64,000 bases of DNA from contig JAJDDB010000035.1 of assembly GCA_029260575.1 (NCBI GenBank), positions 124,001 to 188,000 of the forward strand. Direction: 5' to 3'. This stretch comes from Phycisphaerales bacterium (GTDB lineage: Bacteria; Planctomycetota; Phycisphaerae; Phycisphaerales; SM1A02). Positions 1,274 to 9,609 of the stretch are shown piece after piece; the stretch's first letter is position 1, and each line of letters starts with the position of its first letter. The translations under genes were made by a program, and so were the position numbers. The notes beneath the pieces were generated by a model. That model saw only the letters and a program-made list of their open reading frames with translations. It made no database searches and had not been told where the DNA came from.

Positions 1274-4200
1274 ATGTCATCGATCGTGGCATATCAGACA
1301 TCTTCGGTCAGTACCGCTGAATCCAGCAGAATCCTGACGCGAAACCTCGAAGCCCTGGGCAGCCGGCATCGCGAGCTAGCACAGAAACTCGCGCTAGCCT
1401 CGCCCGCACCCACACTTGCATTCGCGGAAACGCCGGATGGAGTTCCCAGCGTTGTGCTTGATGATCGCCCGCTGTGTTCACGACATCGCCCGATTGCCGA
1501 AGCCCGCCGGCTCGTCGATGGCATTGACATTGTCGAAAACGCAGTCGTGGTCGTATTCGGTTTTGGAGCCGGTTATCACGTGCAGCTACTTGCCCAGCGC
1601 ATGAAACGCACCGGCGTGGTGATCGTGTTCGAACCGGATGTCAGCCTGCTGCGCGGCGTGCTTGAGCGCAACGATATATCATCGTGGCTCGAGGTTTCGA
1701 ACATCGTCTGGATCACCGACGTTGCGGATCGGGCCGGGCTGGCAGCAGCGCTCGACGGCGCAGAGTCAATCCTCGCTCAGGGCGTCGAGTTTGTAGAACA
1801 TCCCCCCAGCAGGCAGCGGCTGGGTGATCAACCGGCGCAGTTCAGCGAGCTGTTGACGAACTACATCGCTACCGCCAAGACAACGCTGATGACAACGCTG
1901 ATGCGCTCTGTCGACACCGTGCGCAACCTGCTGCACAACATTGATCATTATGTCACTGCAGGCGGCATCACCGAACTCGAAGGCGCGTGCCGGAATCAAC
2001 CGGCAGTCATCGTTTCCGCTGGTCCAAGTCTCGCTCGATCGCTGAAGCTGCTTGCTCAGCCGGGCGTGCGTGATCGTTGTGTGATCATTGCGGTGCAGAC
2101 GACACTGCAGCCGCTGCTTGATGCTGGTATCAAACCGCATTTCGTAACGGCGCTGGATTATCACGAAATCTCACGGCGGTTTTATGAGCAATTGAACCCC
2201 GAAGATGTCGCGGATGTCACACTCATCGTCGAACCCAAAGCGCACCCTGTTATTCTCGATGCGTACCCGGGACCAATCCGCATTTGCGCATCGCGCTTCC
2301 TCGATGATCTGCTCGGCGAATGCGCCCGCGATATGGGAACCATTCGCCCCGGCGCGACGGTCGCGCATCTCGCGCTGTACGTTGCGGAACTGCTCGGCTG
2401 CAATCCGATCGCGCTCATCGGCCAGGATCTCGGCTTCACCGACGGTCTGTATTACGCGCCCGGCATTTCCATTGAAGATGTCTGGGCTCCCGAGCTTGGG
2501 CCATTCAACACGATCGAGATGATGCAATGGCAGCGCATCGCCCGACATCGTGTGCATCTGCACAAGACCACCGATGTGCATGGCCGTTCAATTTATTCGG
2601 ATGCGCAGATGTTGACGTACCTGCGACAGTTTGAACGTGATTTCAAGGACTTGGCAAATCGGGGCATAACGGTTATTGACGCAACGGAGGGCGGCCTTGC
2701 CAAGCAGCACACTGAATCGCAGTCGTTGCAGGCATTCCTGGCAGAACATACGTCGGGTGACGCAACACCCCCGCCGCTGCCGACTGATTCTGACGATGCG
2801 AAACACCGGTCTGCTGTGCAGCAGCGCATTGCGTCCATCCGTCAGGAAATCACAGCGCTGCAGCATGTTTCAATGCGCACGCAGCGGCTGTTGCAGACAA
2901 TGATAGCTGATCAGGATGATGCTGCGCGCATGGAAAAGCATTTTCAGCGACTGGAGAAATTCCGCAGCGAAGTCCAACAACGCATTCAGTCGTTTGAGTT
3001 ACTGAACCATGTCAATCAGCTCGGCGTGTTCAAACGGCTGAAAGCTGACAGGCGCCTGCACCTCTCCGCCGATATGTCGCCACTCGATCGACAGCGGGCT
3101 GAACTCGATCGCGATCTCGAAAACGTGCGCTGGATTGCAGATGCTGCCGATGAACTGTTGCGCCAGCTCCTCGATGCGGAACGTATTCTGAATGGTGCAA
3201 CGGTCTCTGCCCGTCCGGCACCCATCAGCATTGACGCGCTGGATGATGACACACACACGAACGATGGCATGCCGACGTGCATCGCAGCACTCATCGCTGT
3301 CGATCCCGATCGCAACGGCCTGTTGCAACCATGCTCGCTCATGGAAGACATACATGGCTGCAACGTTCTGCAACAGACACTTCAGCAGCTCGGCACCTCG
3401 CGCACGCTGAAGATGATCGTTATGCTTGTGCCCGACACATTCGATGTTGAACCTTTGCTCGATCGCAGCGCGATTGGCGTTCCCGTCGAGATCGAACGAT
3501 GCGGCGCGTCGCCGTACCCGCCGGAACATGAGGCGATTGCCGCAGCCCGTGCGTGGAGCGCTTCGTGCTGGCGCGGCGGCATCACTGGTGTCAGTATCTA
3601 CGATGAACTGCTGTGCCCGACGCTCATGCGTGATGTCATGGCAAAACGCGGCATCACTGCGGCACTACTCGTCGGGTCGGACTGGCCGCTGGTACAGGTG
3701 CTCGGCGAACACGGCTGCGATGCGATCATCCAGCGCCATCTCGATTATCCCAAACAAAACTCAATTGTCTTCACGCAGGCAGCCCCCGGGTTATGCGGCT
3801 GCGTCGTGAGCGCATCTGAGATGGATTCACTGGCCCAGCGCAATCGCGTTGCGACAATCGGCGCGCGACTGACCTATCAACCCGGTGCACCGCAAACTGA
3901 TCCGATTGCCAAAGATTTAAATGTGCAGATTCCACCAGCATTGCGGAACACCCTGGTGCGCGCAACTGCTGATTCACCGGCGAATGTGAATACGATAAAG
4001 CAGTTGCTTCAGCCGGACAGCCGTCGACGCGTGACAATCCCGCACGCTGATGAGATCGTACAGAAATTCGAAGCCCAACGGTTCAAAGACGCCGAGCGCA
4101 GCCCGGAACACCTGATCGTCGAATTGACGACACGCCGAACAAGTTGCGGTCAATTTGCGCGTCATCCGTTCGGCAACATCGAGCGGGCCGACCTCGAACC

Positions 4201-4921
4201 GGCCACCCTCGCGCAATTTCTTGACAGTTTCGGCGAGTCACGCCCGACCGCCATAACATTCGATGGCGTCGGTGATCCACTCCTGCATCCGGCATTCGAT
4301 GAATGCATTCGTTCAGCGAAACGCGCCAAATGTACAGTGCATGTGCGAACCGAACTTCTTTGCGATCACGCAACGGTTGATCGATTGCTCGACAGCGGTG
4401 TTGATGTTGTGAGCATTGATCTTCACGCAGATCGCGCAGCGACCTATCAGACGATGATGGGCACTGATCGCTTCAAAGAAGTGCTGCTCACCATGCAGTA
4501 TCTGCTCGATCATCGGCGCGTTCTGACTGCCCAGACCGGGTTGTCTGCAATTGCCCTGCCGTGGATCGTCCCGCGCCTGCAACGCTGCGCTGCAACGTAT
4601 GAAGACATTGATTCGTTCTTCGATCGGTGGCAGCACACTCTGGGAACTGCTGTTCTTGAAGGGTGCCCGACGTTCAACACAGCCGGTGAATCTGCCGATG
4701 ACACACTTCTGCCGGCTGTGACGCCGCGGGCTGTTGTCAAACGTGAATTGCAACGGCGCATGACCGTATTCTGCGACGGTTCCGTACCGATTGATGAATG
4801 TGATCTGCCGGGGCGCAGCACCGCCGGCAACATTCATGACACCGGCGCGACTGAACTGTGGAAACAACTGTTCCAATCGCGACGAACAAAACTTGATTCC
4901 CTGAACCTGTGGCGACCATGA
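1274..4921 (+). CDS. Maf/DUF115 family protein fused to cytidylyltransferase-like and radical-SAM-like regions
   Basis: A 1215-residue protein starting at ATG 1274 (an in-frame TTG at 1244 is less likely). Residues about 90-480 match the DUF115/Maf family, which transfers nonulosonic acids to flagellin in other bacteria: VFGFGAGYH near 94, VSAGPSL near 247, and ALIGQDLGFT near 381. A charged, Gln-rich helical stretch (about 520-660) follows. From about 668 the text (TCIAALIAVDPDRNGLLQP) resembles SpsF/KdsB-type cytidylyltransferases. From about 945 (LIVELTTRR) to the end it resembles a radical-SAM/SPASM protein, including a GNI..TGATELWKQL ending. However, the usual CxxxCxxC cluster is missing, since only one Cys remains after ELTTRR. 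Its stop overlaps the neuA-like start (ATGA), so it is translated with the CMP-sugar genes. The likely role is transfer of the sugar made by the next three genes; the two C-terminal regions may be structural. Confidence 0.75.
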   Translation: MSSIVAYQTSSVSTAESSRILTRNLEALGSRHRELAQKLALASPAPTLAFAETPDGVPSVVLDDRPLCSRHRPIAEARRLVDGIDIVENAVVVVFGFGAGYHVQLLAQRMKRTGVVIVFEPDVSLLRGVLERNDISSWLEVSNIVWITDVADRAGLAAALDGAESILAQGVEFVEHPPSRQRLGDQPAQFSELLTNYIATAKTTLMTTLMRSVDTVRNLLHNIDHYVTAGGITELEGACRNQPAVIVSAGPSLARSLKLLAQPGVRDRCVIIAVQTTLQPLLDAGIKPHFVTALDYHEISRRFYEQLNPEDVADVTLIVEPKAHPVILDAYPGPIRICASRFLDDLLGECARDMGTIRPGATVAHLALYVAELLGCNPIALIGQDLGFTDGLYYAPGISIEDVWAPELGPFNTIEMMQWQRIARHRVHLHKTTDVHGRSIYSDAQMLTYLRQFERDFKDLANRGITVIDATEGGLAKQHTESQSLQAFLAEHTSGDATPPPLPTDSDDAKHRSAVQQRIASIRQEITALQHVSMRTQRLLQTMIADQDDAARMEKHFQRLEKFRSEVQQRIQSFELLNHVNQLGVFKRLKADRRLHLSADMSPLDRQRAELDRDLENVRWIADAADELLRQLLDAERILNGATVSARPAPISIDALDDDTHTNDGMPTCIAALIAVDPDRNGLLQPCSLMEDIHGCNVLQQTLQQLGTSRTLKMIVMLVPDTFDVEPLLDRSAIGVPVEIERCGASPYPPEHEAIAAARAWSASCWRGGITGVSIYDELLCPTLMRDVMAKRGITAALLVGSDWPLVQVLGEHGCDAIIQRHLDYPKQNSIVFTQAAPGLCGCVVSASEMDSLAQRNRVATIGARLTYQPGAPQTDPIAKDLNVQIPPALRNTLVRATADSPANVNTIKQLLQPDSRRRVTIPHADEIVQKFEAQRFKDAERSPEHLIVELTTRRTSCGQFARHPFGNIERADLEPATLAQFLDSFGESRPTAITFDGVGDPLLHPAFDECIRSAKRAKCTVHVRTELLCDHATVDRLLDSGVDVVSIDLHADRAATYQTMMGTDRFKEVLLTMQYLLDHRRVLTAQTGLSAIALPWIVPRLQRCAATYEDIDSFFDRWQHTLGTAVLEGCPTFNTAGESADDTLLPAVTPRAVVKRELQRRMTVFCDGSVPIDECDLPGRSTAGNIHDTGATELWKQLFQSRRTKLDSLNLWRP

Positions 4922-5640
4922 CCATTCACACTCACAATCCGCCGGCCTGCGCAATCATCATCGCCCGGGCAGGCAGCAAGGGACTGCCCGGCAAGAACGA
5001 ACGCCGGTTGGGTGGCAGGCCGATGGTGGCCTACAGCCTCGATGCTGCCCGCGATGCGGTCACAATCAAGCGGACAATCCTCAGCACCGACAGCGCTGCA
5101 ATTGCTGAGACCGCTCACGCGCATGATGTCGAAGTCGTCAATCGACCGGCAGCACTGGCCAGTGACACAGCGACTGTTGACGATGCAGTTCGACATGCTG
5201 TGCAGAGTTCTGACGTCACTGAACCAATCGTTGTGATTCTGTATGCGAACGTTCCGATCCGCCCGAGTGATCTCATCGACCGCGCTGTGCGCGAATTGAT
5301 CATCAGCGGCGCGGACAGCGTGCAGTCATATACATTAGTCGGCAAGCATCATCCACATTGGATGGTGCAGCTTGCGCCCGGCGGGCGTGTCCAGCCGCAT
5401 GTCGACAATGCAGTCTATCGCAGGCAGGATCTTCCGGAATTGCTCATTCCCGACGGCGGCGTCATTGCGGTGACGCGCGATGTGCTGTTCGCTGCAGGTG
5501 AACATCCACACTCGTTTCTTGGCAATGATCGTCGCGGCATTCGCACAGAACCGGGTGCCGTTGTCGATATTGACTGCGAAGTTGATTTCATCGTCGCGGA
5601 ATCAACACTCGATCGTATGAGTGCAGGAGCGGCGGTATGA
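4918..5640 (+). CDS. neuA: Acylneuraminate cytidylyltransferase (CMP-nonulosonate synthetase)
   Basis: A 240-residue protein. It is predicted to activate a nine-carbon sugar acid with CTP to give the CMP-sugar and pyrophosphate in the cytoplasm. The N-terminal nucleotide-binding motif IIARAGSKGLPGKN is the family signature, followed by GRPMVAYSLDAA and the STDS segment (LSTDSAAIAETA). It ends with the usual VDIDCEVDF, which carries metal-binding acidic residues. ATG 4918 overlaps the upstream TGA; a GTG nine bases earlier (4909) is also in frame. Its own TGA overlaps the next ATG at 5637. The motifs do not separate Neu5Ac from legionaminic or pseudaminic acid. Confidence 0.9.
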   Translation: MTIHTHNPPACAIIIARAGSKGLPGKNERRLGGRPMVAYSLDAARDAVTIKRTILSTDSAAIAETAHAHDVEVVNRPAALASDTATVDDAVRHAVQSSDVTEPIVVILYANVPIRPSDLIDRAVRELIISGADSVQSYTLVGKHHPHWMVQLAPGGRVQPHVDNAVYRRQDLPELLIPDGGVIAVTRDVLFAAGEHPHSFLGNDRRGIRTEPGAVVDIDCEVDFIVAESTLDRMSAGAAV

Positions 5641-6662
5641 AGATCGGCTCCACCACGATTGATTGCGATTCGCCGCCGTTTGTCATCGCCGAGATCGGCG
5701 TCAATCACGATGGCAATGTGGATCGCGCACTCGAACTTGTCGACGTAGCGCAGCAATGCGGCGCGGATGCAGTGAAAATTCAGTTCTTCACAGCCGATCT
5801 GCTTCTGAGCAAAGCGGCGCGACTTGCGACATACCAGCATCAAAGCGGCGAATCCGATCCCGTGGAGATGCTCAAACGCCTTGAATTGTCAATAGATGAC
5901 CTCGCAACAGTTGTCGAGCGCGCACATACAAAGAAACTTGCAGCACTAGTCACAGTATTTTCCGTAGAGCTGGTTGAACTGGCTGCAGCACGTGCGTGGG
6001 ATGCGTGGAAAGTTGCTTCGCCGGACATTATCAATCGGCCGCTGATCAATGCTTTGTGCGCTGATGGCCGGCCGGTGCTGCTTTCGACGGGCGCTGCTAC
6101 CAAAGAGGAAGTGCAGCAAGCCGTGCAATGGGTCGGCGATCATCAGCATATTGTGATGCAATGCGTAAGTGCGTATCCCACGCCTGATGATCACGCCGCT
6201 CTGGCAGGCCGCATTGATCTTGAGCGGATCACGCCCTGGGCAATCGGTTACAGCGATCACACGACGAATATTCTGACCGGCGCATATGCTGTCGCCTCGG
6301 GAGCGTGTGTTCTTGAAAAGCACTTGACACACAATCGTAATGCAACCGGTCCGGATCATGCTGCCTCATTAGACCCGACACAGTTCGCACACTACGTTCA
6401 GCATGCACACGAAGCCTTTGCGATGCTCGGCAGCCGGAAGAAGCAGGTTCTTGACATCGAACTCGATGTGCGCGCACATTCACGGCAATCTATCGTCGCT
6501 CGTGATGTACTCGTCGAAGGTAAAACGATTGCGCGATCCGATCTCACGATCAAACGGCCGGGTACTGGCATCGCGCCAAGTTTGATTGATGACCTTGTGG
6601 GACGCACACTTACGAAGACTGTACAGCTTGATATGCCGTTGTCGCCGGACGCTGTGCAGTGA
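5637..6662 (+). CDS. neuB: N-acetylneuraminate/nonulosonate synthase
   Basis: A 341-residue enzyme of the NeuB/LegI/PseI family. It condenses phosphoenolpyruvate with an N-acetylated hexosamine (ManNAc or a diacetamido analogue) to form the nine-carbon acid. Visible hallmarks are FVIAEIGVNHDG near the start, GADAVKIQFF, KVASPDIINRPL, LLSTGAATKEEV and GYSDHT, together tracing the TIM barrel and metal/PEP site. The last 60 residues (RQSIVARDVLVEGKTIARSDLTIKRPGTGI) are the SAF (antifreeze-like) domain that covers the active site of a partner subunit. The ATG overlaps the neuA stop by four bases and its TGA overlaps the GTG of the epimerase, so all four genes are translationally coupled. Confidence 0.92.
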   Translation: MKIGSTTIDCDSPPFVIAEIGVNHDGNVDRALELVDVAQQCGADAVKIQFFTADLLLSKAARLATYQHQSGESDPVEMLKRLELSIDDLATVVERAHTKKLAALVTVFSVELVELAAARAWDAWKVASPDIINRPLINALCADGRPVLLSTGAATKEEVQQAVQWVGDHQHIVMQCVSAYPTPDDHAALAGRIDLERITPWAIGYSDHTTNILTGAYAVASGACVLEKHLTHNRNATGPDHAASLDPTQFAHYVQHAHEAFAMLGSRKKQVLDIELDVRAHSRQSIVARDVLVEGKTIARSDLTIKRPGTGIAPSLIDDLVGRTLTKTVQLDMPLSPDAVQ

Positions 6663-7771
6663 ATGCAACGCGACGGATTGCAGTGCTGACAGGTTCGCGG
6701 GCTGATTTCGGCCTGCTGCGTTCAGTCATGCTCGCAATTCATGAGCACTCACAACTCGAGCTATGCACGATTGTTACCGGCACACATCTGCTGCAACCGG
6801 ATCGGACGATTGATGAAGTCGCAGCTACGTTTACAATTGACTGTTCATTCGAAATGCAGCAATCGGGCGAGCACGGTCGAATTGCCGATGCTGCCGCATT
6901 CGGCAGAGGCGCGACGGCTCTCGCCCAACACTTGCCTGCATTGAATCCGGATGTGTTGCTCGTCCTCGGCGATCGCATCGAAGCATTCGCGAGCGCTGCC
7001 GCTGCTTCAATTGCTGGAGTACGCGTCGCCCACATGCACGGCGGCGACAGAGCCCAAGGCGTCGCAGATGAAGCAATGCGTCATGCAATCAGCAAATTGG
7101 CGCACATCCATCTACCCGCAACGCAACAATCTGCGGATCGACTTGCGCGCATGGGTGAAGACGCAACGCGTATTCATATAGTTGGCTCGCCAGCAATTGA
7201 TGATCTCGATTCATTTAGCCGGCTTGACGATGAGCAATTCGAACAACTCGGACGGCCTGACGTGGTTGTGCTGATGCATCCCGTCGGCTGTGAGGATTCT
7301 GTAGAAGCCCAGGGCATGCGCACCATTCTCAAGAGCTGCGCGAATGCTGGTAACGTCCTCGTGCTTGATCCAAATCACGATCCCGGACGAGTTGGCATCA
7401 TTCAGGCGATTCAAGATTCGGGCCTAACTCGCGCATCGCACCTGCCCAGGAGCACGTTTATCGCGCTGCTTCGGCGTGCCCACTTGCTCATCGGCAACAG
7501 CAGCGCGGGCCTGATAGAAGCCGCGGCGCTCGGCCTACCTGCAATCAATATTGGATCTCGCCAGGCTGGCAGAGAGAAACCCGCTTCTGTCATGGATGTC
7601 GCCACGCCAGACGAGGCTGAGCTTCTTCAAGCGATCACTACTGCTATGCAGCGCGGCACCGTTGACATTGTTCATCCATACGGCAACGGATCAACCGGCA
7701 GGCGTACCGCCGTCCTGCTCGCCGACTTCGATCCAGCAGCGCACCCGATAACAAAGCGTAATACGTTCTGA
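6659..7771 (+). CDS. neuC: UDP-N-acetylglucosamine 2-epimerase (hydrolysing), NeuC type
   Basis: A 370-residue GT-B-fold enzyme. It is predicted to convert UDP-GlcNAc (or a UDP-diacetamido sugar) to the free 2-epimer that NeuB uses. Evidence: LTGSRADFGLLRSVM near the N-terminus, LVLGDRIEAFASAAAAS, AHMHGGDRAQGVADEAMRHAISKLAHIHLPAT, and the late GNSSAGLIEAAALG nucleotide-sugar motif. The start is GTG 6659, which shares bases with the TGA of neuB. No legB-, legC- or legH-type genes follow, so the simplest reading is the three-step CMP-Neu5Ac route, although genes elsewhere could make it a legionaminic acid pathway. Confidence 0.9.
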   Translation: MNATRRIAVLTGSRADFGLLRSVMLAIHEHSQLELCTIVTGTHLLQPDRTIDEVAATFTIDCSFEMQQSGEHGRIADAAAFGRGATALAQHLPALNPDVLLVLGDRIEAFASAAAASIAGVRVAHMHGGDRAQGVADEAMRHAISKLAHIHLPATQQSADRLARMGEDATRIHIVGSPAIDDLDSFSRLDDEQFEQLGRPDVVVLMHPVGCEDSVEAQGMRTILKSCANAGNVLVLDPNHDPGRVGIIQAIQDSGLTRASHLPRSTFIALLRRAHLLIGNSSAGLIEAAALGLPAINIGSRQAGREKPASVMDVATPDEAELLQAITTAMQRGTVDIVHPYGNGSTGRRTAVLLADFDPAAHPITKRNTF

Positions 7772-7828: not shown

Positions 7829-7904
7829 TCGTTCTTCTTTGAACGATAAAGTCGCACGCCATCGAAACCGATTGCTCGGATAGACGGTGCCATGAAAGCG
7901 CCGT
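7829..7904 (+). promoter_or_regulatory. Leader region with two hairpins before the HDOD gene
   Basis: Two inverted repeats lie in the 158-base spacer after neuC. At 7829-7846, TCGTTC and GAACGA are separated by six bases and followed by TAAA; this could end neuC transcription, but there is no T-run. At 7884-7904, ACGGTGC and GCGCCGT surround CATGAAA, and the arm ends 25 bases before the HDOD ATG at 7930. No known riboswitch consensus is recognisable. Confidence 0.3.
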
Positions 7905-7929
7905 GCGGGTCACCAAGAGGGGATTTTCA

Positions 7930-8817
7930 ATGGCCGCTACTACCACCGAAGAACAGGCAGCAATCATCGATTCCGCAATCAAGGGCATCAGCCATATTGC
8001 GACGTTGCCTGAGATCACGATCAAGATCATCGAGTTGGTTGAACAGCCGACGAGCACCGCCCAGGATCTTCATAAGGTCATTGCAAACGACCCGGCACTG
8101 TGCAGTCGAATCCTCAAAGTTGTCAATTCCGCGTTTTACGGTTTGCCGCGACAGATCGGTTCGATCAATCGTGCGATCGTTTTGCTCGGCCTCAATGCGG
8201 TGAAGAACATCGCCATTGCAGCGAGTCTGACCAAGCTCTTCCGCGGGGGTGAGCTGTGTCCGAATTTCTCAGCTCGTGATTTGTGGGTGCATTCAATCGG
8301 CACCGCAGCATGCAGCAAACTGATCTGCGACACGCTCAAGATCGGCCTGCCTGATGAAGCGTTTCTTGCCGGCCTGATTCATGACATCGGCATGATGGTC
8401 GAAGTGCAGGCGCTGCGCGAACAACTCGTGCAGGTCTTTGATCAGCTTGAATTTGACGGCGAAGGCGTTCCGCAGCAGGACATGCGCGAACTCGAACGCC
8501 AAGTCATCGGCGCAGATCACTGTGCATTCGGCGCAGCGTTGTGCGAGACTTGGAAATTCCCCAAGTCGTTTGCGTTCGTGACCGGACACCATCACAACCC
8601 GATGGAGCTGCCCGGCGGCAGTCGAGCACTGACTTCCATCGTGTACATCGCAGACCGCATCACCGGCGAGGCTGGTTACGGCTTCCGCTCTGATCTGCAG
8701 AGCCTCGAACTCAATCCCGATATTCTTGCGGAACTGAAGATGACTGATGAGCACGTCGCATCGGTTCGTGAGAATCTGCCGGGTGTGTTCGAAGAAGTTG
8801 AAGGCATGTTCCGCTGA
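7930..8817 (+). CDS. HDOD domain signalling protein
   Basis: A 295-residue protein made almost entirely of an HDOD domain, a degenerate relative of HD phosphohydrolases usually found in signalling and cell-cycle or motility control. Visible: PEITIKIIELVEQPTSTAQDLHKVIANDPALCSRILKVVNSAFYGLP near the N-terminus (read in pieces), then SINRAIVLLGLNAVKNIAIA, FLAGLIHDIGMMV and FVTGHHHNPMEL. Some HD-like His/Asp pairs (IHDIG, GHHH) persist, so residual metal binding is possible. The start is placed at ATG 7930 because AGAGGGG lies just upstream; an in-frame GTG at 7903 would add nine residues that fit poorly. Output partner not visible in the window. Confidence 0.88.
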   Translation: MAATTTEEQAAIIDSAIKGISHIATLPEITIKIIELVEQPTSTAQDLHKVIANDPALCSRILKVVNSAFYGLPRQIGSINRAIVLLGLNAVKNIAIAASLTKLFRGGELCPNFSARDLWVHSIGTAACSKLICDTLKIGLPDEAFLAGLIHDIGMMVEVQALREQLVQVFDQLEFDGEGVPQQDMRELERQVIGADHCAFGAALCETWKFPKSFAFVTGHHHNPMELPGGSRALTSIVYIADRITGEAGYGFRSDLQSLELNPDILAELKMTDEHVASVRENLPGVFEEVEGMFR

Positions 8818-8907
8818 ATTCAGCCGGTCCCTGCAAGTCAGGTTCTGAGAATACAGGTAGTACAGCACATCGCCGGTGCGCTCTCGCCGCGCCTACGATT
8901 GCTGCGG

Positions 8908-9609
8908 ATGACAGAAGTAATCAGGGTCAACTTCACCCGGCCGATGCCGGTGTTCCCGCTGCCGGATGATGTGCTGCTTCCGCACGCCATCAAGGCGATT
9001 CACGTATTCGAACCGCGCTACCGCCAGATGATTGACGAAACACTGGATCGCAGTGGTCAGATCTGCCTGGCTGTGTACGAATCCGAAGACTGGAAGCAGC
9101 ACTACGAAGATCGCGCTTCGCTTCGACCGGTTGTTTGCGTCGGACAGTTGGTCAGACACGAATCGCTTCCTGATGGCAGGCACAATATTTTGCTGCATGG
9201 TATCTGCCGTGCGCGCATTGAGCGGCTCATCGAACCGACCGGCCAGCGCATGTATCGCCTTGCGGTGCTTCGGCCACTGGAACGTCTCGATGCTGACCCA
9301 CCGCCGATGGAAGATGTGCGCATCGAACTGCAATCCATATTGCAGTGCCCGTTCCTGCAACGGCTGCGCTGCATTGAAACGGTGACTGAGTGGATTGATC
9401 GTGATGAAATCTCAACCCATGCGCTGCTTGAGCTCATCGGCTTTGCGATCGTGCGCGACACGGAAGTTCGATATCGCCTGCTTTCCGAACCGGAGCCGAA
9501 GACGCGAGCCGAGATCATCATGTGTGAATTGCATCGACTGAGCAAAGTTGTCAGCACCGCATCGCGACAAAGTCACAAGCGCTGGCCGAAGGGTGCGAGT
9601 TGGAATTGA
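8908..9609 (+). CDS. LON substrate-binding (LonN) domain protein
   Basis: A 233-residue stand-alone Lon N-terminal domain protein. The opening VFPLPDDVLLPHAIKAIHVFEPRYRQM is the standard LonN beginning, and LVRHESLPDGRHNILLHGICRARI matches the following PUA-like barrel. The C-terminal half is helical. It has neither the AAA+ nor the protease part of Lon, so it probably recognises peptides or acts as an adaptor; many bacteria carry such stand-alone copies. ATG 8908 is preferred over a TTG at 8899. It lies 90 bases after the HDOD gene on the same strand. Confidence 0.88.
   Translation: MTEVIRVNFTRPMPVFPLPDDVLLPHAIKAIHVFEPRYRQMIDETLDRSGQICLAVYESEDWKQHYEDRASLRPVVCVGQLVRHESLPDGRHNILLHGICRARIERLIEPTGQRMYRLAVLRPLERLDADPPPMEDVRIELQSILQCPFLQRLRCIETVTEWIDRDEISTHALLELIGFAIVRDTEVRYRLLSEPEPKTRAEIIMCELHRLSKVVSTASRQSHKRWPKGASWN

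Follow-up and report, generated by a model that had tools for sequence, protein, structure and literature searches.

A Maf-type glycosyltransferase fused to a spiro-SPASM-like module in a planctomycete: a putative non-catalytic partner for flagellin glycosylation

What does a planctomycete do with a single gene that resembles three enzymes? The window analysed here, a stretch of 64,000 nucleotides from a Phycisphaerales bacterium, contains an open frame on the plus strand (1274-4921) that encodes 1215 amino acids when counted from its ATG; an alternative start, TTG, lies 30 bases upstream. An earlier note, made from the letters alone, had distinguished a Maf/DUF115, a cytidylyltransferase-like and a radical-SAM-like region in this one 1215-residue chain, and both the open frame and the positions of the three regions are as it placed them. 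Scans for promoters and terminators gave signal no higher than in shuffles. The reading that we favour, at a probability of roughly 0.55, is that a flagellin glycosyltransferase for nonulosonates, which are sialic-acid-like sugars, is joined here to a partner without catalytic activity. Support for the identity of the Maf half is good; the role that we propose for the C-terminal module is what we infer from its motifs and its company. The parts of the gene are as follows.

1274..4921, plus strand: fused gene, 1215 aa, Maf-type glycosyltransferase and spiro-SPASM-like module
1274..1918, plus strand: Rossmann-like N-terminal domain of Maf, residues 1-215 (PF20157 below threshold here)
1922..2443, plus strand: DUF115/MptE-like catalytic core, residues 217-390, with VSAGPSL, TVAHL and LIGQDLGF
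2798..3190, plus strand: helical domain, residues ~509-639, where Maf has its C-terminal helical bundle (modelled secondary structure)
3212..3274, plus strand: low-confidence linker, residues ~647-667, from the Maf part to the module; the split point in relatives
3275..4114, plus strand: degenerate cytidylyltransferase-like domain, residues ~668-947, phosphate-binding Arg/Lys lost
3569..3607, plus strand: signature of the family, WRGG-x7-DE, at residues 766-778, with invariant W, R, G and D (45/45)
4115..4720, plus strand: pseudo-radical-SAM barrel, residues ~948-1149, GxGD at 998-1001 kept, CX3CX2C absent
4721..4918, plus strand: remnant of the SPASM region; the Cys ligands of split relatives are missing here

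Residues 1-640 belong to the Maf-type (DUF115/PF01973) flagellin glycosyltransferases by both profile and structure-model matches, as had been suggested from the motifs. PF01973 matches residues 217-390 (E=3e-37, 128 bits against a cut-off of 34.6), the PseD profile NF050051 matches residues 91-573 (E=3e-19) at 69 bits against a cut-off of 670, and a profile built from relatives matches the Maf structure 5MU5 at 6e-16. The same structure is the best Foldseek match of the full-length AlphaFold model (E=1e-17), with the three-domain fold of Maf, so the DUF115 fold is borne out by modelling; the pTM of this model is 0.54, at which the arrangement of the domains and the placement of the two halves are not reliable. 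PF20157, the Maf N-terminal family, scores 15 bits against a cut-off of 23.5 in this protein and passes its cut-off in split relatives. Behind the Maf part, the linker at ~647-667 comprises about 20 residues with pLDDT below 50 in the full-length model. Compared with Maf/PseD (PF01973; 5MU5 is from Magnetospirillum magneticum), the planctomycete protein has in common the three-domain layout, the DUF115 core motifs, nonulosonate genes alongside and co-occurrence with flagellin, but it differs in its low NF050051 score and in an added C-terminal module of 550 residues. Judged by family and co-occurrence, the Maf half is most likely a nonulosonate transferase acting on flagellin.

The sugar donor is suggested by the genes directly downstream, where the nonulosonate pathway expected by the earlier note is indeed encoded.

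4909..5640, plus strand: neuA, CMP-nonulosonate synthetase, motif intact
5637..6662, plus strand: neuB, nonulosonate synthase
6659..7771, plus strand: neuC, UDP-GlcNAc 2-epimerase, above the NCBIfam cut-off
7903..8817, plus strand: HDOD-domain gene, conserved neighbour
8899-9609: LON-domain-like gene

The first four of these recur in the same order in relatives, where the LON-domain-like gene also comes after neuC. In the scheme that we propose, NeuC, NeuB and NeuA would produce CMP-nonulosonate, and the Maf-type part would move the nonulosonic acid from its CMP form to flagellin in the cytoplasm, prior to export. The C-terminal half would be a non-catalytic binding module that holds a ligand or client for the transferase, perhaps the CMP-sugar, flagellin or a component of the export machinery, and the fusion would maintain transferase and module as a 1:1 complex.

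Flagellin as the acceptor is predicted from co-occurrence. Across the phylum, 225 of 392 genomes encode flagellin, but among the 52 that have the Maf half the figure is 51 (Fisher 8e-13; kinship among the genomes, on which all such counts depend, is left uncorrected), and a NeuB-family gene accompanied the pair in 52 of 52, with 51 strong matches. Among 161 genomes of the order there were 131 matches: 126 full, split or contig-broken genes, every one in a genome with flagellin, and five short forms. Flagellin is absent from 27 genomes of the order, four of which have a short form and 23 no gene, and seven flagellin-bearing genomes, two of them incomplete, are without the gene. Because the full-length gene co-occurs so strictly with flagellin, the surface-protein glycosylation envisaged in the earlier note is better narrowed to this one predicted acceptor. 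Some other surface or secreted protein might be modified instead, given that not every DUF115 protein is a flagellin transferase and that no flagellar gene adjoins the fused gene, but the co-occurrence makes this unlikely.

The remaining residues, ~668-1215, form a separate module that combines a cytidylyltransferase fold with a radical-SAM barrel. Modelled alone, residues 661-1215 reach a pLDDT of 89.9 and a pTM of 0.91. Residues 7-287 of this model match cytidylyltransferases (6oew, Z 19.6; KdsB, Z ~14), confirming the nucleotidyltransferase fold, and residues 283-555 match radical-SAM/SPASM enzymes (SuiB, Z 21.1; MoaA, Z 20.1). The best family match is to spiro-SPASM (TIGR04321), over residues 813-1202 with E=3e-15 and 56 bits against a cut-off of 250; with separate-gene relatives, most of this profile is covered at 80-159 bits, all below 250, and the matches of split relatives include SPASM. 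PF04055 matches residues 972-1080 just below its cut-off. Unlike spiro-SPASM proteins, the protein studied here has Maf attached and carries neither of the two Cys sets. That such folds can lack the SAM cluster was recognised before, as the name of TIGR04347 (pseudo-SAM/SPASM) and its weak matches to split relatives (to 2e-11) show, but that is another family, and the match does not include the cytidylyltransferase-like part. The Leptospira protein 6oew was considered as a spiro-SPASM fragment and dropped, as its alignment shows an ordinary SpsF-type motif; a tblastn search of plasmids for spiro-SPASM returned just generic radical-SAM proteins, one of them on a Brachyspira plasmid.

Judged by motif, the module counts as a pseudo-enzyme: the residues for catalysis in either parent fold are gone. 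Residues 950-961, where CX3CX2C would stand, read ELTTRRTSCGQF, and the motif occurs at the radical-SAM position in 0 of 110 relatives, the only two pattern matches both lying in the SPASM end. An active classical radical-SAM enzyme is rejected because the cluster motif is missing in all relatives. Four SPASM Cys residues are kept in separate-gene relatives (80 to 86 of 110 rows), where PF13186 is passed, and are gone in the fused clade, this protein included. With neither CX3CX2C nor the SPASM Cys set present, the description of this end as radical-SAM/SPASM-like is true of its fold only. Residues ~668-947 share their fold with the SpsF/KdsB/NeuA cytidylyltransferases (6oew, 1gqc), but the catalytic Arg and Lys are replaced and the module has a signature of its own, WRGG...DE. 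In the alignment, the position of the catalytic Arg of NeuA is Asp in the modules of 36 of 45 relatives, and at the Lys position of the phosphate-binding loop 30 of 45 have Arg, and this protein has Ser. The metal-binding Asp positions and the DE of the signature are retained, which leaves room for some unusual activity. The invariance of WRGG...DE (766-778) and of GxG (998-1000) indicates that the module is conserved for something.

The distribution of the module is that of a lasting partner of Maf. In a scan of named genomes we found 80 loci, with titles nearly all Planctomycetota or Phycisphaerae; the relatives are Phycisphaerae, in line with the planctomycete origin that had been guessed. 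In 77 of the 77 loci with readable downstream DNA the module lies directly behind the Maf gene, usually as a separate gene, and in deeper lineages the neu genes are not beside the pair. One carrier of the split pair, strain ZRK32 (L149), is a planctomycete reported to be in culture (PMC10945688). The statement that Maf proteins are normally separate is correct for Maf in general, but in the Planctomycetota the module is always its neighbour. The domain-order search proposed in the earlier note recovered the same full-length order, with zero stops and at 37-51% identity, in many genomes of the same order. Its remark that no protein of this order had been described agrees with our literature search (conducted without most subscription journals), in which neither a DUF115 fusion of such order nor planctomycete nonulosonate together with flagella nor the term 'spiro-SPASM' was found, but the order is not unique to this gene.

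On the module tree a single branch (SH-aLRT 98) sets apart the joined state, in families f1, f2 and f5, and the fusion has arisen once within the order. This count refers to the order; outside it, a member of another planctomycete family (f82; L053:7601-11110) has an independent fusion of 1169 aa, whose chain matches DUF115, nucleotidyltransferase, radical-SAM and SPASM and in which SPASM is kept. That the same neighbours were joined twice, both times in this order, speaks for a physical partnership. An assembly error or frameshift that artificially joined two genes was also considered. The two are separate genes in many relatives, but the identical fusion is present in dozens of independently sequenced genomes from four families, it falls on one side of a branch, and its stop-free recurrence at such divergence leads us to reject an artefact with near certainty. 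Within the fused clade, one genome (G502; L159:7939-11684) has two overlapping frames with the break in the helical region, which may be a genuine fission or a frameshift introduced by sequencing. A planctomycete-type pair also occurs in a MAG titled Alphaproteobacteria (L104:7947-11494), which is probably a mislabelled bin.

If the module is conserved, what is it conserved for? Activation and transfer of the sugar by a single polypeptide, as put forward in the earlier note, would have the middle region carry out the CMP transfer and the Maf part pass the sugar on. The cytidylyltransferase fold (Z as high as 19.6) and the retained Asp residues are in its favour, but the Arg and Lys of the phosphate loop are missing from the module, the module is kept in short forms without NeuB, and a dedicated NeuA stands next door in which R20, S23, K29, D220 and D222 are kept and are invariant in ten relatives. 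We therefore abandon the claim of coupling as improbable. A new type of active enzyme, in which the WRGG...DE site would act on the CMP-sugar or the SPASM of the split forms would serve a redox role, fares a little better and is still doubtful: the signature residues W, R, G and D are invariant in all 45 modules, and the SPASM Cys residues persist in ~80 of 110 relatives, but the radical-SAM cluster site is found in none of the 110, and the whole fused clade has lost the SPASM Cys and kept the gene itself. For a module that is not required for CMP-activation, cannot be a classical radical-SAM enzyme and is always beside Maf, the simplest explanation is that it binds or handles something.

A more serious competitor comes from the short forms, which are found in five genomes (G295, G360, G481, G463 and G499, the last cut by a contig end; loci L051, L052, L156, L157 and L158) and measure 677 to 964 residues. 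What they retain is a DUF115 remnant and the complete module; the N-terminal and helical domains of Maf are gone. The neuABC genes are missing at their loci, and NeuB was found in 0 of the 5 genomes. In two cases (L156, L157) the LON-domain-like gene, the counterpart of 8899-9609 in the window, lies directly behind the short gene, so the segment from neu to HDOD was deleted on the spot. Judged by dN/dS over the module, 0.29 for L051/L158 and 0.11 for L052/L157 (dS saturated), the short forms are under purifying selection on this part. Flagellin and the hook/rod families are missing in four of the five genomes, all five have a FHIPEP (FlhA) match, which may be flagellar FlhA or an injectisome homologue, and four relatives without FlhA have no copy of the gene. 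Since the short forms persist without NeuB and, in four of five, without flagellin, the module has work beyond nonulosonate transfer, perhaps located at the export gate.

It is conceivable, then, that the module serves mainly a step of flagellar export or assembly and that Maf was joined to it because the export gate is where the two encounter flagellin. The trimmed but selected short forms and their link with FlhA suggest this, but four of these genomes are without flagellin and hook/rod proteins, five other genomes with FlhA and flagellin are entirely without the gene, and a sequence link to export proteins was not found; we regard the idea as possible but rather less probable than our main reading. 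Slightly more tentative still is the view that the module is a new pseudo-enzyme component tied to the apparatus of flagellar export, with a role older and broader than the sugar transfer to which it was fused. This is suggested by the lineages that keep FlhA and retain, under selection, the module and a trimmed transferase core after losing the synthesis of nonulosonate and even flagellin and hook.

Under our preferred reading, a nonulosonate flagellin transferase with a non-catalytic partner, an obligate and apparently non-catalytic component has been added to a well-studied glycosylation system, and it is a standing, unexplained companion of Maf enzymes across the Planctomycetota. The pairing also provides a lead to function for the spiro-SPASM family. 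The roles of the Rossmann-like N-terminal and helical C-terminal domains of Maf are unclear in the literature (PMC11339370), and the planctomycete short forms are natural deletions in which exactly these two domains were lost together with NeuABC and the rest was kept. The downstream genes have themselves been joined in places: in several relatives of the same operon, a single frame matches both neuA and neuB (L054:10619-13060, L055:10209-11960, L137:11470-13245, L143:6504-8309, L150:10807-12555 and L039:11251-13101).
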